Positions 5,875-14,659 of a stretch of 64,000 nucleotides of DNA are shown one piece after another. Origin of the DNA: Pseudomonas rhizophila (GTDB lineage: Bacteria; Pseudomonadota; Gammaproteobacteria; Pseudomonadales; Pseudomonadaceae). The stretch spans positions 5,515,178-5,579,177 of the forward strand of contig NZ_CP024081.1 of the NCBI RefSeq assembly GCF_003033885.1. The letters are read 5' to 3'. The notes below the pieces were generated by a model that was not told the origin of the DNA, made no database searches, and saw nothing but the letters and a program-made list of their open reading frames with translations. The position numbers and the translations under genes are program-made. Position 1 is the stretch's first letter. Each line of letters begins with the position of its first letter.

Positions 5875-6555
5875 TCACACCTCGCTCACCTCAAACACAA
5901 ACGAAATCTCCCGCTTCTGGGCGCTCCAGACGTACCGGATATGCTTGCCCTGCACCGGAATCGAAACCGCCGGTGGGCGAAACGCCGCCACGCATTCGTG
6001 GCCGGGCAGGCGGACGCTGTTGTACAGCAAGCCCCAGGACAAGGTTTCGCGCAGTTGCCGGGCGAACACCTGGGACGGACCGTAGGCGGTGGGATCCGGG
6101 TCGTGCAGGTGCGGGTAATCTTGGCGGATGTCGTGCAGCGGCTTGATGACCTTGTTGACGTAAGTGCGCATGGTCAATTCCAGATCCGGCTCGTTGGTCG
6201 CTCCGAGGAATCGCGCCTGGTGGTAGCAGGTCTCGGCAATGGCGGCTTCCTGGCTGCTGGCGGCGTAGTAGACACCGAAGGTGCCGTCGCTGAAGCGGCT
6301 GCTTTTGCCGATATGAGTAAACGCGGCCATCACCGGCGAGGAGCCGGGCCCGGAAATGCGGTCCTCGGGGCGTACCCGGGACAGCACCCCGGCTTCTTCC
6401 ATGAGCCGATCGTTGGTCAGTGCTTCCAGGGCATACGCGGTGGGCAGGTCCTCGGGATCGAGCACGTCTTCGAACAGCGCAATCGGCGGGAAGCTGCTGT
6501 TGACGATCCGGTAGGCACGCTTCCATTGCGGGTCCGCCAGTGGTGGCGTCATCAA
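5875..6555 (-). CDS. RES-family NAD+-degrading toxin
   Basis: A 226-residue RES-domain protein. The family's arginine-glutamate-serine pattern can be followed: an early arginine in WKRAYRIV, GVYYAASSQEAAIAETCYH with the conserved Glu, and a later LLYNSVRLPG with the Ser. Characterised RES toxins (MbcT type) consume NAD+ and arrest growth. It is the downstream gene of an Xre antitoxin operon with a 4-base overlap (6552-6555), the normal antitoxin-toxin order for this class. All motifs look intact, so it is probably active. Confidence 0.9.
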   Translation of the reverse strand: MMTPPLADPQWKRAYRIVNSSFPPIALFEDVLDPEDLPTAYALEALTNDRLMEEAGVLSRVRPEDRISGPGSSPVMAAFTHIGKSSRFSDGTFGVYYAASSQEAAIAETCYHQARFLGATNEPDLELTMRTYVNKVIKPLHDIRQDYPHLHDPDPTAYGPSQVFARQLRETLSWGLLYNSVRLPGHECVAAFRPPAVSIPVQGKHIRYVWSAQKREISFVFEVSEV

Positions 6556-6962
6556 CCGCGCACTCCGTCGAGGTAACGCCGCACATCGGCAATGTCTACC
6601 ACCCGGCCGGCAAGCATGTAGGCCAGTGCCGACTGGCCGTTGAAGGGCGCAGCGGTATTAGGGCTGTTGACCCACTGGTAAGCGCGGTCCCGGCTGTTGC
6701 TGAAGATGATGCTCAGCGCCTTGTGAATACCCATGAGGTAGGAAATGCGCTCCAGTGTGTCGTGAGGCAGCCTGACGTTTTCCGGTAATTGCTTGTACTT
6801 ATAGAAAGTCGTGTTGCCTACCTTGCCCAGCAATGTGCGCTGCTGCTCGACACTGCAGCCCCACAACGCCATGAGATTGAAGAAAAACTTCAACGCGACC
6901 CGACCCGCGTCAGGGGAGTCCAATTGTTGCTGCGCGTTGAGGGTGATGGAGGAGGTTGCCAT
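6552..6962 (-). CDS. Xre/MbcA/ParS-family antitoxin of the RES toxin
   Basis: A 136-residue antitoxin. The N-terminal half (about 20-75) is an Xre-like helix-turn-helix region, and the C-terminal half carries the toxin-binding DUF2384 pattern: ERISYLMGIHKALSIIF, then RAYQWVNSPNTAAPFNGQSALAYML and a final IADVRRYLDGVRG. It neutralises the co-encoded RES protein and should autorepress; an imperfect palindrome at 6981-6998 is a good operator candidate. The start is followed closely by the family sequence with nothing missing. Confidence 0.9.
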   Translation of the reverse strand: MATSSITLNAQQQLDSPDAGRVALKFFFNLMALWGCSVEQQRTLLGKVGNTTFYKYKQLPENVRLPHDTLERISYLMGIHKALSIIFSNSRDRAYQWVNSPNTAAPFNGQSALAYMLAGRVVDIADVRRYLDGVRG

Positions 6963-7316: not shown

Positions 7317-8243
7317 ATGGATAGCAGAACCTTACGCAACCTCATGCGCATCGTGCAGACCGGCTCCTTGTCGGCGGCGGCGGAACATTCGTGCCTCACG
7401 GTGCAGGCATTGGCGGCACAGTTGAACAAAGTTGAGGAGCAGTTCGGCTTCCGGTTGTTCCGGCGGTCGAACAAGGGCCTGACGTTGACGAGCCAAGGCT
7501 CGGAACTGACGCCGTTCATGGATCAGGTGCTGGTTGCCACGCGGCAGTTGGAAGAGAAGGTCGCGGCGCTGAAGACGCCTCGGCAGCGCACGCTGAGAGT
7601 GGCGCTCAATACCACGCTGCCGGCGGAGTTCAACCGGCGGATGATCGATCGGCTGATCGCCGTGTTTCCTCAGTATCAGTTGGAGTTCAGCTACGCCGAG
7701 TCGATGGAGAACCTGAGCAAGCTCAAGAACGAAGATTTTGACCTGGCGATCCTGATCGGTCCGCAGCAGAGCGGCTTTTCCAGCATCACAATGCCGGACG
7801 TCCAGGTGCAGGTGGTCGGCGCCCATTGCGGCGAAGAGGACGACTCCCTCGGTTTGCTCGGCGATAAGTTTCAGGTGCGTCCGGCCGAGGAATGTCCGTA
7901 TTCCCACAGTTTCCTTCGCTTCCTGGATGCCGGCCTGGGCGAGTACGGCTCGAGTCAGCGGATGGTGTATTCCTGCAGTGAAACGCTGACATTGTCGTTG
8001 ATTACCCAACTCGATGGCCTGGGGCTGGTGTCCCGGGAAGCGGCGCTGCGTAACGACTTGACGATTTTCCCGGACTTCGAGGATTTCCTCGAGGTCCGCC
8101 TGGCGGTGAATAATCCAGAGTTGTCCGGCCAGGCACTGCACGATGTTGTGGACCTGACGCTAAAGGAACGAACCGAGCGCGATGTACGCCGCCGTGCCCA
8201 CCGCCACACTGAGAAACAGGTTGCGGCTGAAATACGCACATAA
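7317..8243 (+). CDS. LysR-family transcriptional regulator
   Basis: A 308-residue protein with an N-terminal winged HTH (RTLRNLMRIVQTGSLSAAAEHSCLTVQALAAQLNKVEEQFGFRLF, residues 4-50) and a substrate-binding effector domain from about 95. The strong GAGG upstream supports this ATG. It faces the azlDC operon tail to tail. Its last ~27 codons (8160-8243) are antisense to azlD, and the C-terminus they encode is unusually arginine-rich (RDVRRRAHRH), as if a stop codon had been lost. It may regulate the neighbouring operon, possibly at the palindrome at 10443-10461; that is inference. Confidence 0.85.
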   Translation: MDSRTLRNLMRIVQTGSLSAAAEHSCLTVQALAAQLNKVEEQFGFRLFRRSNKGLTLTSQGSELTPFMDQVLVATRQLEEKVAALKTPRQRTLRVALNTTLPAEFNRRMIDRLIAVFPQYQLEFSYAESMENLSKLKNEDFDLAILIGPQQSGFSSITMPDVQVQVVGAHCGEEDDSLGLLGDKFQVRPAEECPYSHSFLRFLDAGLGEYGSSQRMVYSCSETLTLSLITQLDGLGLVSREAALRNDLTIFPDFEDFLEVRLAVNNPELSGQALHDVVDLTLKERTERDVRRRAHRHTEKQVAAEIRT

Positions 8244-8477
8244 CAGCGTCGGAATCGCGGCATAGAATTCCGGGCGGTCGAGTTGTATCTGCTGATCCTT
8301 GATCAACAACGGGGTGAGGCTGATGGCAGCGACGATCGCCACCGGCAGGTATTCCAGGGCGCGGGCGACGAACGGTGGCCAGTTTTCAGTATTGACCTGC
8401 AGCGGCAGGGCCCGTGGCAGAAAGGTCACCGCCATCATCAGGGCCACGACCAGGATCAGGAACGTTTGGTCAGGCAT
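8160..8477 (-). CDS. azlD: AzlD family membrane protein
   Basis: A 105-residue, very hydrophobic protein with three to four membrane helices (LILVVALMMAVTFLP, YLPVAIVAAISLTPLL, LFLSVAVGTAAYIALG), of the length typical of AzlD. With AzlC it forms the two-part branched-chain amino acid exporter described in Bacillus and Corynebacterium (BrnFE). Its start lies inside the end of azlC (22-base overlap), so the two are coupled. The 3' end overlaps a convergent LysR gene by 84 bases. Confidence 0.85.
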   Translation of the reverse strand: MPDQTFLILVVALMMAVTFLPRALPLQVNTENWPPFVARALEYLPVAIVAAISLTPLLIKDQQIQLDRPEFYAAIPTLLCAYFSRNLFLSVAVGTAAYIALGSFL

Positions 8478-9169
8478 ACGCCCACCCCGCAGCCAACGAA
8501 CGTGGCAATGAAGACATTGAACGGCGAGCTGCCCAGCAGGCTCAGCCCGCCCATGCAGACGACCGCCGCCAGGGCAGCGATCAGTTTGTTACGGGTATTG
8601 CACAGCGAAACCAGCACGTAGAGCATCATCGCGGTCAAGGCGTAGTCGAGCTGGTATTTGATCAGGTGCGCCGCGTATTGCGCACACACCGCTCCCAACA
8701 GGCCACCCAGCACCCAGGAGGTGTGGCAAAAGAGGTTGAAGCCGATCAGGTAACGCACGCTGACCGGCGCACCGGTGCCGAGCTTGACGCTGTGGAAAGC
8801 GAATGACTCGTCCGTGAGCCCCGCCGCGTAGCACCAGCGCTCGAAACGACTGAGCCCCAGCGCACGCAATGCCTTGGCCATGTAGACCGACATCAGCATG
8901 TGTCGCGCGTTGATCAGGAAGGTGGTGAGCACGATAGTGGTCAGCGATGCTCCACTGGAAATCAACGCCAGCGCCGCAAATTGCGAAGCGCCCGCGTAAA
9001 CGAACAGGCACATCGCCACCGGCAGCCACAAGGGCAACCCGGCGTTGACCGCCATCAGACCGAACACAAACGAAACCGTAAAATAACCCGCTACCACCGG
9101 ACTGGCTTCAGCAAAGGTACGCGAGGCTTGTGGTTCGACCACCAGCGGCTGGCTGGAAGTCTTGCTCAT
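8456..9169 (-). CDS. azlC: AzlC family branched-chain amino acid exporter, large subunit
   Basis: A 237-residue inner-membrane protein with several helices and the family segments SPVVAGYFTVSFVFGLMAVNAGL, ASQFAALALISSGAS and INARHMLMSVYMAKAL. AzlC/BrnF exports branched-chain and other hydrophobic amino acids with AzlD/BrnE. It overlaps the GNAT gene upstream by 4 bases and azlD downstream by 22, making it the third gene of a four-gene operon. The co-encoded dioxygenase and acetyltransferase suggest that the exported compound may be a modified amino acid. Confidence 0.88.
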   Translation of the reverse strand: MSKTSSQPLVVEPQASRTFAEASPVVAGYFTVSFVFGLMAVNAGLPLWLPVAMCLFVYAGASQFAALALISSGASLTTIVLTTFLINARHMLMSVYMAKALRALGLSRFERWCYAAGLTDESFAFHSVKLGTGAPVSVRYLIGFNLFCHTSWVLGGLLGAVCAQYAAHLIKYQLDYALTAMMLYVLVSLCNTRNKLIAALAAVVCMGGLSLLGSSPFNVFIATFVGCGVGVCLTKRS

Positions 9170-9603
9170 AGATCCCTCTCGAAAGTGATTTCACCCCGAG
9201 GCTCACAAAAGCCTTGGGCTGCCCAAAACCGCTTGCCGGCCAGATTAGCATCGTCGACGAACAGGAACATGCGCAGTACGCCGACCCGTTTCATGTCGGC
9301 CGATGCCGCCTCCACCAGACGCTGGCCCAAGCCTCGGGTTCGATGCCCCGGGCTGACGGCCAGGTGATTGATGGTGCCACGGGTGCCGAGCATGCCGCCA
9401 ATCACCGCCCCCACCACTTCACCGCTGACATCGACGGCCAGGTACGCGGTGGTGGTGTCCTGCAACAATACCCCGCGCAAGAATCGGGCATCCTGCCACT
9501 CGCAGAACGACACTTCGTCGAAACCGCGAAAAAACTGCTCCAGTCGTTCGGCGTCCCTGACCATTGCCCGGCGCAACAGAACCTGTTGCTCCAGATCGTC
9601 CAT
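9166..9603 (-). CDS. GNAT family N-acetyltransferase
   Basis: A 145-residue single-domain acetyltransferase. The acetyl-CoA loop is visible as INHLAVSPGHRTRGLGQRLVEAA, followed by a final MFLFVDDANLAGKRFWAAQGF typical of amino acid or small-amine GNATs. The ATG at 9603 gives the family length and falls 13 bases after the stop of the dioxygenase gene. It overlaps azlC by 4 bases. Position between a free-amino-acid dioxygenase and an amino acid exporter suggests it acetylates the hydroxylated product or its precursor; the substrate is not known. Confidence 0.85.
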   Translation of the reverse strand: MDDLEQQVLLRRAMVRDAERLEQFFRGFDEVSFCEWQDARFLRGVLLQDTTTAYLAVDVSGEVVGAVIGGMLGTRGTINHLAVSPGHRTRGLGQRLVEAASADMKRVGVLRMFLFVDDANLAGKRFWAAQGFCEPRGEITFERDL

Positions 9604-9616
9604 GGGTTCGAGCTGT

Positions 9617-10363
9617 TCAGCGAACAATGTCGAAAGCGGTCCCGGGCCGCGAGAAGGAAATCGCCAGGATCTGCCTGAAAGCCATTTCATGGCTGTGGAC
9701 GTTCCGGGCCGGGGTGACGTAATGGCGCATGTCGCGGTCGAGGAAGAAAGTGGTGTCGAGAATGTCCTCGTAGGTAATCGCTGCCAGTTGTTCTTCCTGG
9801 GCGGTGTACAGACGACTCTCTGCGCCGGCCACATTATGACGGCCCCAGAAGTGCACGCCGCTGAACGGATACCCATCGCAATGGATCCCTTCAGGGGTGA
9901 TTTCCAGTTGCTTGCCCGGCTTGATCTCGATACGGATCTGGTGGATCTGGCACTGCCAGGTTTCCTCGTGCAGCTCCTGAGGAAGGACGTTCTTGTACAC
10001 CTCAAAGTCCGTGTCGATCAGACTGCGCATCACCGGTGAGTTGATCACTTCGTTGGAAAAGTCCTGGAAGTGCCGCTCCAGTCCACCGACATAGCTGTTG
10101 TTGGCCTTGGACTGAATGTAGGCCCGATGCTCGAGCTGCGTAAGGTCGCGGGTCCTGGGGTTGTATTCGAAGTCGCTATAGCGGCGAAAACGCATGCCTG
10201 ACTCGGCCTGGCCGTAGTAGCTGTCGGGCTCCATGTTTTCCCAGCTCTTGGTCAGCCGGACAAAGTCGCCGAAATGACCGTAGAGATTGAAGTCTCCACC
10301 GCGGACGTTGACGTATTTGTCACGCCTCAGCGCTTCGCCTACTTCCCTGTTCAGAACGATCAT
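9617..10363 (-). CDS. 2-oxoglutarate/Fe(II) dioxygenase of the PF10014 family (amino acid hydroxylase type)
   Basis: A 248-residue enzyme with the iron-binding facial triad H161-x-D163 (EGIHCDGYPF) and H214 (DMRHYVTPA), plus R230, a likely 2-oxoglutarate ligand (RQILAISF). This pattern belongs to the PF10014 2OG-Fe_Oxy_2 family, whose studied members (Bacillus IDO; HilA/HilB of Pantoea) hydroxylate free hydrophobic L-amino acids such as isoleucine. It is the first gene of an operon with a GNAT enzyme and the AzlCD exporter. Substrate and position of hydroxylation are unknown. An inverted repeat at 10443-10461 lies in its promoter region. Confidence 0.88.
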   Translation of the reverse strand: MIVLNREVGEALRRDKYVNVRGGDFNLYGHFGDFVRLTKSWENMEPDSYYGQAESGMRFRRYSDFEYNPRTRDLTQLEHRAYIQSKANNSYVGGLERHFQDFSNEVINSPVMRSLIDTDFEVYKNVLPQELHEETWQCQIHQIRIEIKPGKQLEITPEGIHCDGYPFSGVHFWGRHNVAGAESRLYTAQEEQLAAITYEDILDTTFFLDRDMRHYVTPARNVHSHEMAFRQILAISFSRPGTAFDIVR

Positions 10364-10442
10364 TTTTCATAGGTCTCCACTGCATTGAGCAGCCTAATCT
10401 AGTAGGTACAGGATTTACGTCCATGAGAAAGTATTTGAGGCA

Positions 10443-10461
10443 TTTCAAGCCATGCTTGAAA
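10443..10461. promoter_or_regulatory. Perfect inverted repeat upstream of the dioxygenase operon
   Basis: TTTCAAGC-CAT-GCTTGAAA lies 80-98 bases ahead of the dioxygenase start. The dyad and distance suit a LysR-type or similar dimeric regulator. The region is otherwise AT-rich promoter DNA. Confidence 0.5.
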
Positions 10462-10536: not shown

Positions 10537-10568
10537 GAAAAAACCCCGAGTTTGCGCTCGGGGTTTTT
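10537..10568 (-). terminator. Terminator of the oprD-family gene
   Basis: Stem CCCCGAG/CTCGGGG with T-runs on the minus strand, 29 bases after the porin stop codon. Confidence 0.8.
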
Positions 10569-10596
10569 CATCAGACGCTTGTAACGTGATCAGGCA

Positions 10597-12670: not shown

Positions 12671-13777
12671 TCATTTTGTGCGCGGCGCAGGCTGTTGTTG
12701 GGTAAGGCAGTGGATGTTTCCGCCCCCCAGTAACAGTTCGCGCCCCGGCACCATGACCACTTCGTGCTCTGGAAAAAGCCCTTGCAGAAGCGCCTTCGCC
12801 GGGCCATCCAGTGGATCGTCGAAACTCGGTGCGATGATGCCGCCGTTGACGATCAGGAAATTCACGTAGGAACCGGCCAACCGCACGGTCGGATTGCGCT
12901 CCTGGGAACCCTGCACCGCGTCCACGCCGGCGCATTCCTCTTCAGTGGCATACAACGGCCCCGGAATTGGCATTTTGTGCACTGTGAACGGGCGTCCCTT
13001 GGCGTCAGTGCTGTTTTGCAGGACGTCCATCGCGGCGTGGCAGCGGGCGTAGTTCGGGTCCTGCGGGTCATCGGTCCAGGCCAGCAATACTTCGCCAGGG
13101 CGCACGTAGCAGCAGAAGTTATCCACATGCCCGTCGGTTTCGTCGTTGAACAGGCCGTCCGGCAGCCAGATGATCTTGTCCACCGCCAACTGCGCGCTGA
13201 GCACAGCCTCGATGTCTTCGCGGCTCAAGTGCGGGTTGCGATTGCGGTTGAGCAGGCATTCCTCGGTGGTGATCAGGGTGCCCTCGCCATCGACGTGGAT
13301 TGAGCCGCCCTCAAGCACGAAGCCTTCGGTGCGGTAACGCGGGCTGCGTTCAATCTCGAGAATCTTGCTGGCCACTTGCGAATCCCGGTTCCACGGCGCA
13401 TACAGGCCACCGTCAAACCCACCCCAGGCGTTGAAATCCCAGTCGACGCCGCGCACTTCGCCACTATCATTGATGACAAACGTCGGGCCGGTGTCCCGGA
13501 CCCAGGCATCGTCGCTGGACATTTCCACCACGCGGATATTCGGCACGTCGAGATGCGCCCGGGCATTTTCGTATTGGTTCGCGGACACCGCCACGGTTAC
13601 CGGTTCGAAGCGGGCGATGGCTTTGGCGACCGCCACATGAGCGGCCTGCGCGGGCTTGCCGCCCAGGCGCCAGTTGTCAGGGCGCTCGGGCCAGACCATC
13701 CAGACCTGGGTCTGGGGTGCCCACTCGGCAGGCATGTGGAAACCATCCGCGCGGGGAGTGCTGTTCAACGTTGTCAT
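12671..13777 (-). CDS. aguA: Agmatine deiminase
   Basis: A 368-residue enzyme of the peptidyl-arginine deiminase superfamily that converts agmatine to N-carbamoylputrescine and ammonia. The N-terminal [30 protein letters not shown], the [10 protein letters not shown] and [11 protein letters not shown] segments, and the C-terminal [14 protein letters not shown] with the nucleophilic Cys are all present, and the length is standard. It lies 3 bases downstream of aguB, so the two work as one unit giving putrescine. Confidence 0.96.
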
Positions 13778-13780
13778 AAA

Positions 13781-14659
<879 letters not shown>

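Follow-up and report, generated by a model that had tools for sequence, protein, structure and literature searches.

Organization of the locus

The stretch of Pseudomonas rhizophila DNA analysed here (64,000 nucleotides [nt] of contig NZ_CP024081.1; hereafter, the window) comes from a genome of 5.95 Mb in one contig and carries, on its minus strand, a compact cassette of four genes encoding a PF10014 2-oxoglutarate/Fe(II) dioxygenase, a GNAT-family acyltransferase and the two subunits of an amino-acid exporter, AzlC and AzlD. The dioxygenase and GNAT genes are separated by 13 nt, the GNAT and AzlC genes overlap by 4 nt, and the AzlC and AzlD genes overlap by 22 nt, exactly as listed in a preliminary description made from the sequence alone. 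The iron triad named in that description, H161/D163/H214, is likewise intact in the dioxygenase sequence. All four members of the cassette as first described therefore hold, but a fifth, a LysR-type regulator gene convergent on the AzlD gene, had been missed. The features of the locus are as follows:

9617-10363, minus strand: PF10014 2-oxoglutarate/Fe(II) dioxygenase, 248 aa, iron triad H161/D163/H214
9166-9603, minus strand: GNAT-family acyltransferase, 145 aa, PF00583
8456-9169, minus strand: AzlC, large subunit of a two-part amino-acid exporter, 237 aa, PF03591
8160-8477, minus strand: AzlD, small exporter subunit, 105 aa, PF05437
7317-8243, plus strand: LysR-type regulator, PF00126/PF03466, convergent on the AzlD gene, candidate cognate regulator
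10435-10448, minus strand: putative LysR-type operator TTGAAATGCCTCAA, motif TT[GT]A-N6-T[CG]AA upstream of the dioxygenase gene
10396-10401, minus strand: candidate -10 box TAGATT, 33 nt past the operator-like site
10538-10569, minus strand: terminator-like hairpin 3' of an OprD gene, likely upstream boundary of the cassette

Co-inheritance of the cassette in Pseudomonas

To define the distribution of the cassette, we surveyed 298 Pseudomonas genomes for the dioxygenase (E ≤ 1e-3), the GNAT (E ≤ 1e-15) and AzlC (E ≤ 1e-30). Dioxygenase matches were obtained in 89 genomes, 68 of which harbor a protein 63-100% identical to that of the window, with the other listed matches reaching at most 32%; because identities split in this manner, the cut defining a cassette-type dioxygenase is a natural one. 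The GNAT and AzlC were each found in 68 genomes, with weakest matches of 2e-36 and 2e-78, respectively, and the genome sets of the three proteins are identical. Furthermore, in these 68 genomes the dioxygenase and AzlC matches always lie on one contig, 450-498 nt apart. AzlD was counted in a set of 89 loci, composed of 80 named loci (the best 80 of 112) and nine fetched from the genus survey; named loci and survey genomes partly overlap, and the counts are not additive. AzlD is present in every one of these 89 loci, all of which display the four genes on one strand in the strict order dioxygenase-GNAT-AzlC-AzlD.

The strict gene order and the identical sets of 68 genomes exclude a chance grouping and bear out the proposal that the four genes constitute one unit. 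The preliminary description had staked its reading on dioxygenase and AzlCD not proving to be rarely together in related genomes, and within the cassette subfamily the dioxygenase and AzlC do indeed share the same 68 of 298 genomes. Comparing the window with six other loci gives ratios of nonsynonymous to synonymous substitution rates (dN/dS) of 0.03-0.24 for all five genes, which indicates that all of them are under purifying selection. The closest named dioxygenase locus among the best 80 of 112, which may omit records very near the window's genome, is that of P. tehranensis (99% identity). In one genome, the cassette AzlC gene carries a stop (G290:C1:440666-441295), and the match covers residues 1-210 only.

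A linked LysR gene and a conserved upstream site

The LysR gene is present and convergent in all 80 named loci. In a divergent clade of seven genomes, with dioxygenases 63-65% identical to that of the window, it is located upstream, adjoining the dioxygenase gene and divergently transcribed. We searched these seven genomes and one other (G018) with the window LysR, scoring 76-136 candidates per genome, and each of the eight returned one match at E ≤ 1e-25, which was the cassette LysR each time (34-35% identity in the divergent clade and 60% in G018). Linkage of the genes and of the regulator is thus well supported. In the window, the LysR and AzlD coding regions share 84 nt at their 3' ends (8160-8243), which would make their transcripts mutually antisense.

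Upstream of the dioxygenase gene, a TT[GT]A-N6-T[CG]AA motif (TTGA-N6-TCAA-like) is found 70-130 nt before the start codon in 80 of the 89 loci, compared with a composition-shuffle frequency of 0.7% per locus that has to be read in the light of loci being related to one another and hence not independent. The remaining nine loci present, by eye, a one-mismatch form of the motif, and a TAGATT-like box follows the motif at 33 or 34 nt in 79 of the motif-bearing loci. A stricter form of the motif matches seven times in the 64-kb window, both strands counted, so that the motif is not rare in itself; a stronger point than the shuffle figure is that the operator-like site keeps its position before the dioxygenase gene in both LysR arrangements. 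A simple promoter scan flagged nothing at the candidate promoter and -10 box. Taken together, linkage and site conservation suggest that the LysR protein is the cognate regulator of the cassette and that it may bind at the putative operator (10435-10448). A second inverted repeat, TTTCAAGC-ATG-GCTTGAAA (window 10443-10461), overlaps the operator-like site and, by eye, survives in some of the related loci but has decayed elsewhere.

The hairpin following the OprD gene consists of a 13-bp stem (-19.6 kcal/mol, z -4.4) and is trailed by T residues; a simple terminator scan did not flag it (10538-10569). OprD lies upstream in 70 of the 80 named loci and was not detected in eight of the nine further loci, including the seven of the divergent clade. 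With the hairpin separating it from the cassette and eight of nine further loci lacking a detected copy, OprD is unlikely to be a cassette member. Further upstream, the window contains two genes (12671-14659) whose products presumably resemble an agmatine deiminase and an N-carbamoylputrescine amidase, the first of which is present in 74 of the 80 named loci. On the other flank, beyond the LysR gene, a pair of the Xre/RES toxin-antitoxin type (5875-6962) is found in 58 of the 80 named loci.

Fold and likely chemistry of the dioxygenase

The dioxygenase scores 171 bits against PF10014 (2OG-Fe_Oxy_2, BsmA/IDO family; curated cut-off 23.1) and carries the fold of the solved members of this family. 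In an alignment of 28 sequences, comprising the window protein and 27 homologues at 41-90% identity, H161 and H214 do not vary at all, and D163 is conserved to at least 90%. Its best sequence match in the PDB is a protein named HrmJ, and the structural matches to HrmJ, 8w8h, 3pl0 and IDO all fall within about 2.3 Z units, for which reason the fold match picks no chemistry. Identity to IDO in the structural alignment is 20%. The model of the isoleucine-pathway dioxygenase HilB (NF042428) yields 26 bits for an equivalog cut-off of 350, and an isoleucine (Hil-type) assignment is therefore not supported.

According to the available portions of published descriptions, including PMC3684760, the substrates of PF10014 relatives are free amino acids. 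The chemistry of the family on amino acids is unusual and spans hydroxylation, cyclopropanation and aziridination: nitrocyclopropanes are formed by the HrmJ family and aziridines by the related TqaL. The preliminary description had the enzyme hydroxylate a branched-chain or other hydrophobic amino acid. Hydroxylation is not singled out by the data, with a nitrocyclopropane maker as the best PDB match and an aziridine maker among its relatives, and neither is the substrate class, given the low HilB score and the export of histidine and asparagine by AzlCD in Bacillus subtilis. The enzyme probably oxidises an amino acid.

The acyltransferase and the exporter

Acetyl-CoA is bound in GNATs through a (Q/R)xxGx(G/A) motif. 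The cassette GNAT presents it as RTRGLG (residues 88-93), with R88 and G93 invariant in 17 GNAT rows and the middle G absent from three divergent-clade rows. The protein has a generic GNAT fold (54.9 bits against PF00583, over the curated cut-off) and belongs to a distinct subfamily defined by the stretches FxEVxFCxWQ, G(T/S)RGTINHLAVS and GExTxExDL. One of the hits to the GNAT profile is a weak one from a putative phosphinothricin N-acetyltransferase (E 4.9e-4), and row 50 of the GNAT structural matches is the tabtoxin resistance protein. These sequence features are compatible with the product of the dioxygenase, with its substrate or with another target, and hence do not establish the earlier proposal that the GNAT acts on the dioxygenase product.

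AzlC and AzlD, encoded by adjacent genes as a two-part exporter should be, score 131 bits against PF03591 and 75.2 bits against PF05437, respectively, both over the curated cut-offs. The model for the B. subtilis-type azaleucine exporter azlC (TIGR00346) yields 84.3 bits for an equivalog cut-off of 332, placing the window AzlC outside that equivalog. Cassette AzlC proteins are 55-59% identical between the two main clades, compared with at most 32% between the window AzlC and ten other AzlC proteins of the genus, and these identities argue for a single cassette AzlC lineage rather than repeated recruitment. In a tree built on 17 cassette rows and 10 others, those at hand, the cassette rows likewise fall into one group (support 98/97); long branches meet at the cassette node, so we weight identity above the tree. 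In the available text of PMC10882977, B. subtilis AzlCD is described as exporting histidine, asparagine and the analogue 4-azaleucine, and in view of this promiscuity branched-chain specificity is not to be assumed.

PF10014 genes outside the cassette

To ascertain whether more distant PF10014 genes also associate with AzlC, we sought AzlC within about 6 kb of 35 places in 34 genomes, comprising 17 of the 27 distant places in the genus, places of 14 of the 20 other genomes from a class survey, and all three non-genus places from an order survey. AzlC was found near six of the 35, a count from which contig ends may hide some. Five of these six, all in Pseudomonas (L157, L158, L159, L172 and L173), define a second cluster, in which the PF10014 gene is followed, in the same order in 5/5 loci, by genes for a serine hydroxymethyltransferase-like protein, a double ATP-grasp ligase and a TIM-barrel protein, then by those for a remote AzlC and an AzlD-like protein. 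The family names rest on L157 (6865-13244), whose AzlD match, at 21.9 bits, stays below the threshold of 23.7. The AzlC of this second cluster gave no match to the window AzlC at E ≤ 1e-3, and the cluster looks like a small peptide or amino-acid natural-product cluster. In the sixth case (G569), the AzlC/AzlD-like pair has its own regulator-like gene and its proximity to PF10014 is probably incidental, since unrelated genes on both strands intervene. A cassette-type GNAT, AzlC or AzlD was found in none of 11 distant PF10014 loci. The full cassette is thus a feature of one PF10014 subfamily, but the association of PF10014 with AzlCD seems to have arisen on two or more occasions, in support of a role in export.

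Beyond the genus, dioxygenases recovered in the class survey (369 genomes) and the order survey (390 genomes, limit 1e-35) score at most 178 bits, compared with a window self-score of 440. Protein searches returned dioxygenase relatives at 55-65% identity named Entomobacter, Candidatus Pantoea, Photobacterium and Acinetobacter. Comparing 24 dioxygenase contigs with 10 GNAT contigs, a part of all, revealed five pairs of equal length, one of them named Candidatus Pantoea multigeneris; all these pairings are indirect, being drawn from proteins only. No GNAT hits named Entomobacter, Photobacterium or Acinetobacter were listed in a search in which many hits are nameless and which was limited to relatives with shared words. 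The viral contigs scanned contained no relative, and a plasmid search returned 41 records, all below 60% identity. In Cronobacter (P0124-P0136), a GNAT of the cassette subfamily is present at 41-43% identity and no Cronobacter-named dioxygenase appears among the matches listed; this GNAT may have another partner.

Comparison with described systems

In the available text of PMC3684760, the Hil operon of Pantoea and Pseudomonas comprises hilR, hilP, hilA, hilB, hilC and others, such as rhtA in some cases, and the IDO operon of Bacillus thuringiensis encodes isoleucine dioxygenase, AMKP reductase and the exporter RhtA. The cassette resembles the Hil operon in associating a LysR regulator and a PF10014 dioxygenase with, as in some Hil operons, an amino-acid exporter, but it differs in using AzlCD as the exporter, in the presence of a GNAT and in a dioxygenase that fails the HilB model. 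Moreover, a scan of eight proteins from the cassette and its immediate flanks recovered none of the Hil partners, namely the tandem PF13640 dioxygenase, the short-chain dehydrogenase (PF00106) and the solute-binding protein (PF00497). Similarly, the IDO operon unites a PF10014 enzyme with an amino-acid exporter, but the cassette has a GNAT in place of the dehydrogenase and AzlCD in place of RhtA, and its dioxygenase is 20% identical to IDO.

The Streptomyces nitrocyclopropane-forming PF10014 enzymes HrmJ and BelL share the fold of the cassette dioxygenase, HrmJ being the closest in sequence among solved structures; in the published passages available, however, they sit in peptide natural-product clusters with an N-oxygenase, whose PF14518 marker is not linked to the cassette. 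AzlBCD of B. subtilis is likewise a two-part AzlC and AzlD exporter with a dedicated transcription factor; in the cassette, by contrast, the regulator is of the LysR type, two enzymes are attached, and AzlC scores 84 of 332 bits on the azlC model. By analogy, the cassette would work like the IDO and Hil operons, oxidising an amino acid and exporting the product, with the addition of a GNAT and a different exporter, and it is not itself a Hil operon. Among open-licence PMC papers, we found no title or abstract on PF10014 with a GNAT and AzlCD, which does not imply absence from print.

Proposed function and alternatives

We propose, with about even confidence, that the cassette is a LysR-controlled system for the oxidation, acylation and efflux of an amino acid. 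For its substrate, reaction type, order of steps, acetylation target and export direction, we infer the following scheme. The LysR protein would sense an amino-acid-like ligand and drive transcription of the dioxygenase-GNAT-AzlC-AzlD operon, whose promoter would lie no more than about 90 nt before the dioxygenase gene. Using Fe(II), O2 and 2-oxoglutarate, the dioxygenase would oxidise a free amino acid at its side chain, the GNAT would then acetylate the amine, yielding a masked, less toxic form, and AzlCD would pump the acetylated product out. This scheme is supported by the action of PF10014 relatives on free amino acids and by the export of amino acids by AzlCD in B. subtilis, by the pairing of PF10014 with an amino-acid exporter in the IDO and some Hil operons, and by its pairing with an unrelated AzlC in all five loci of the second cluster. 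It is further supported by co-inheritance, strict gene order, a single AzlC group, LysR linkage with its upstream site, and low dN/dS.

The biosynthetic purpose assumed in the preliminary description is not established, as production and export of a masked oxidised amino acid and the disarming of an external analogue are close rivals, the latter explaining the data nearly as well. In such a detoxification, a realistic possibility that we nevertheless do not favor, the LysR protein would sense an external toxic amino-acid analogue, with plants or competitors as possible sources; the two enzymes would inactivate it, and AzlCD would expel it. GNATs commonly inactivate amino-acid analogues, and the weak phosphinothricin N-acetyltransferase match and the tabtoxin resistance protein among the structural matches point in the same direction, as do the patchy distribution of the cassette (68/298 genus genomes) and its lack of a precursor gene. 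The range of B. subtilis AzlCD, which in the available text includes 4-azaleucine as well as histidine and asparagine (PMC10882977), also fits. However, an exporter and one inactivating enzyme would suffice for this purpose, and the retention of both enzymes in 68/68 genomes suggests a two-step pathway; the PF10014 operons treated in the available portions of PMC3684760 are, moreover, interpreted as producing rather than destroying a compound.

The two enzymes might also act in the reverse order or make a ring. We take SadA, the model for an enzyme that oxidises an amino acid already acylated, to be no PF10014 protein, which argues against the cassette GNAT acting first, and the PF10014 enzymes described in the accounts available act on free amino acids. 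The constant association of GNAT and dioxygenase in the genus survey is compatible with this order, and SadA hydroxylates N-substituted amino acids such as N-succinyl-leucine (PMC3665795, in the portion available); on balance, we consider it improbable. Even less probable, in our view, is a dioxygenase that makes a cyclopropane or aziridine amino acid like HrmJ, BelL or TqaL, with the GNAT and the exporter handling the reactive product. The resemblance to HrmJ invites this idea, but the four structural scores lie too close together for the match to choose a chemistry. Furthermore, PF14518, which we take to be the family type of the diiron N-oxygenases making the HrmJ substrate, occurs at four places in the genome, all of them roughly 800 kb or more away from the window.

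Within the scheme of oxidation, acylation and efflux, the exported product could conceivably be an N-acetylated oxidised amino acid new to science, serving as a diffusible signal or masked antimetabolite sensed by the linked LysR protein, constituting a minimal five-gene small-molecule system. We regard this as unlikely; if true, many species in the Pseudomonas fluorescens group, along with some relatives, would share such a system. Few PF10014 members have a known substrate, and the cassette subfamily brings its own acetyltransferase, exporter, regulator and candidate operator. With these parts conserved over many species, a comparison between a deletion strain and its parent could lead straight to the cassette product. 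Whether this proved to be a secreted amino acid not described before or revealed a new route of resistance to amino-acid analogues, a function could then be assigned to an operon that environmental Pseudomonas have conserved.

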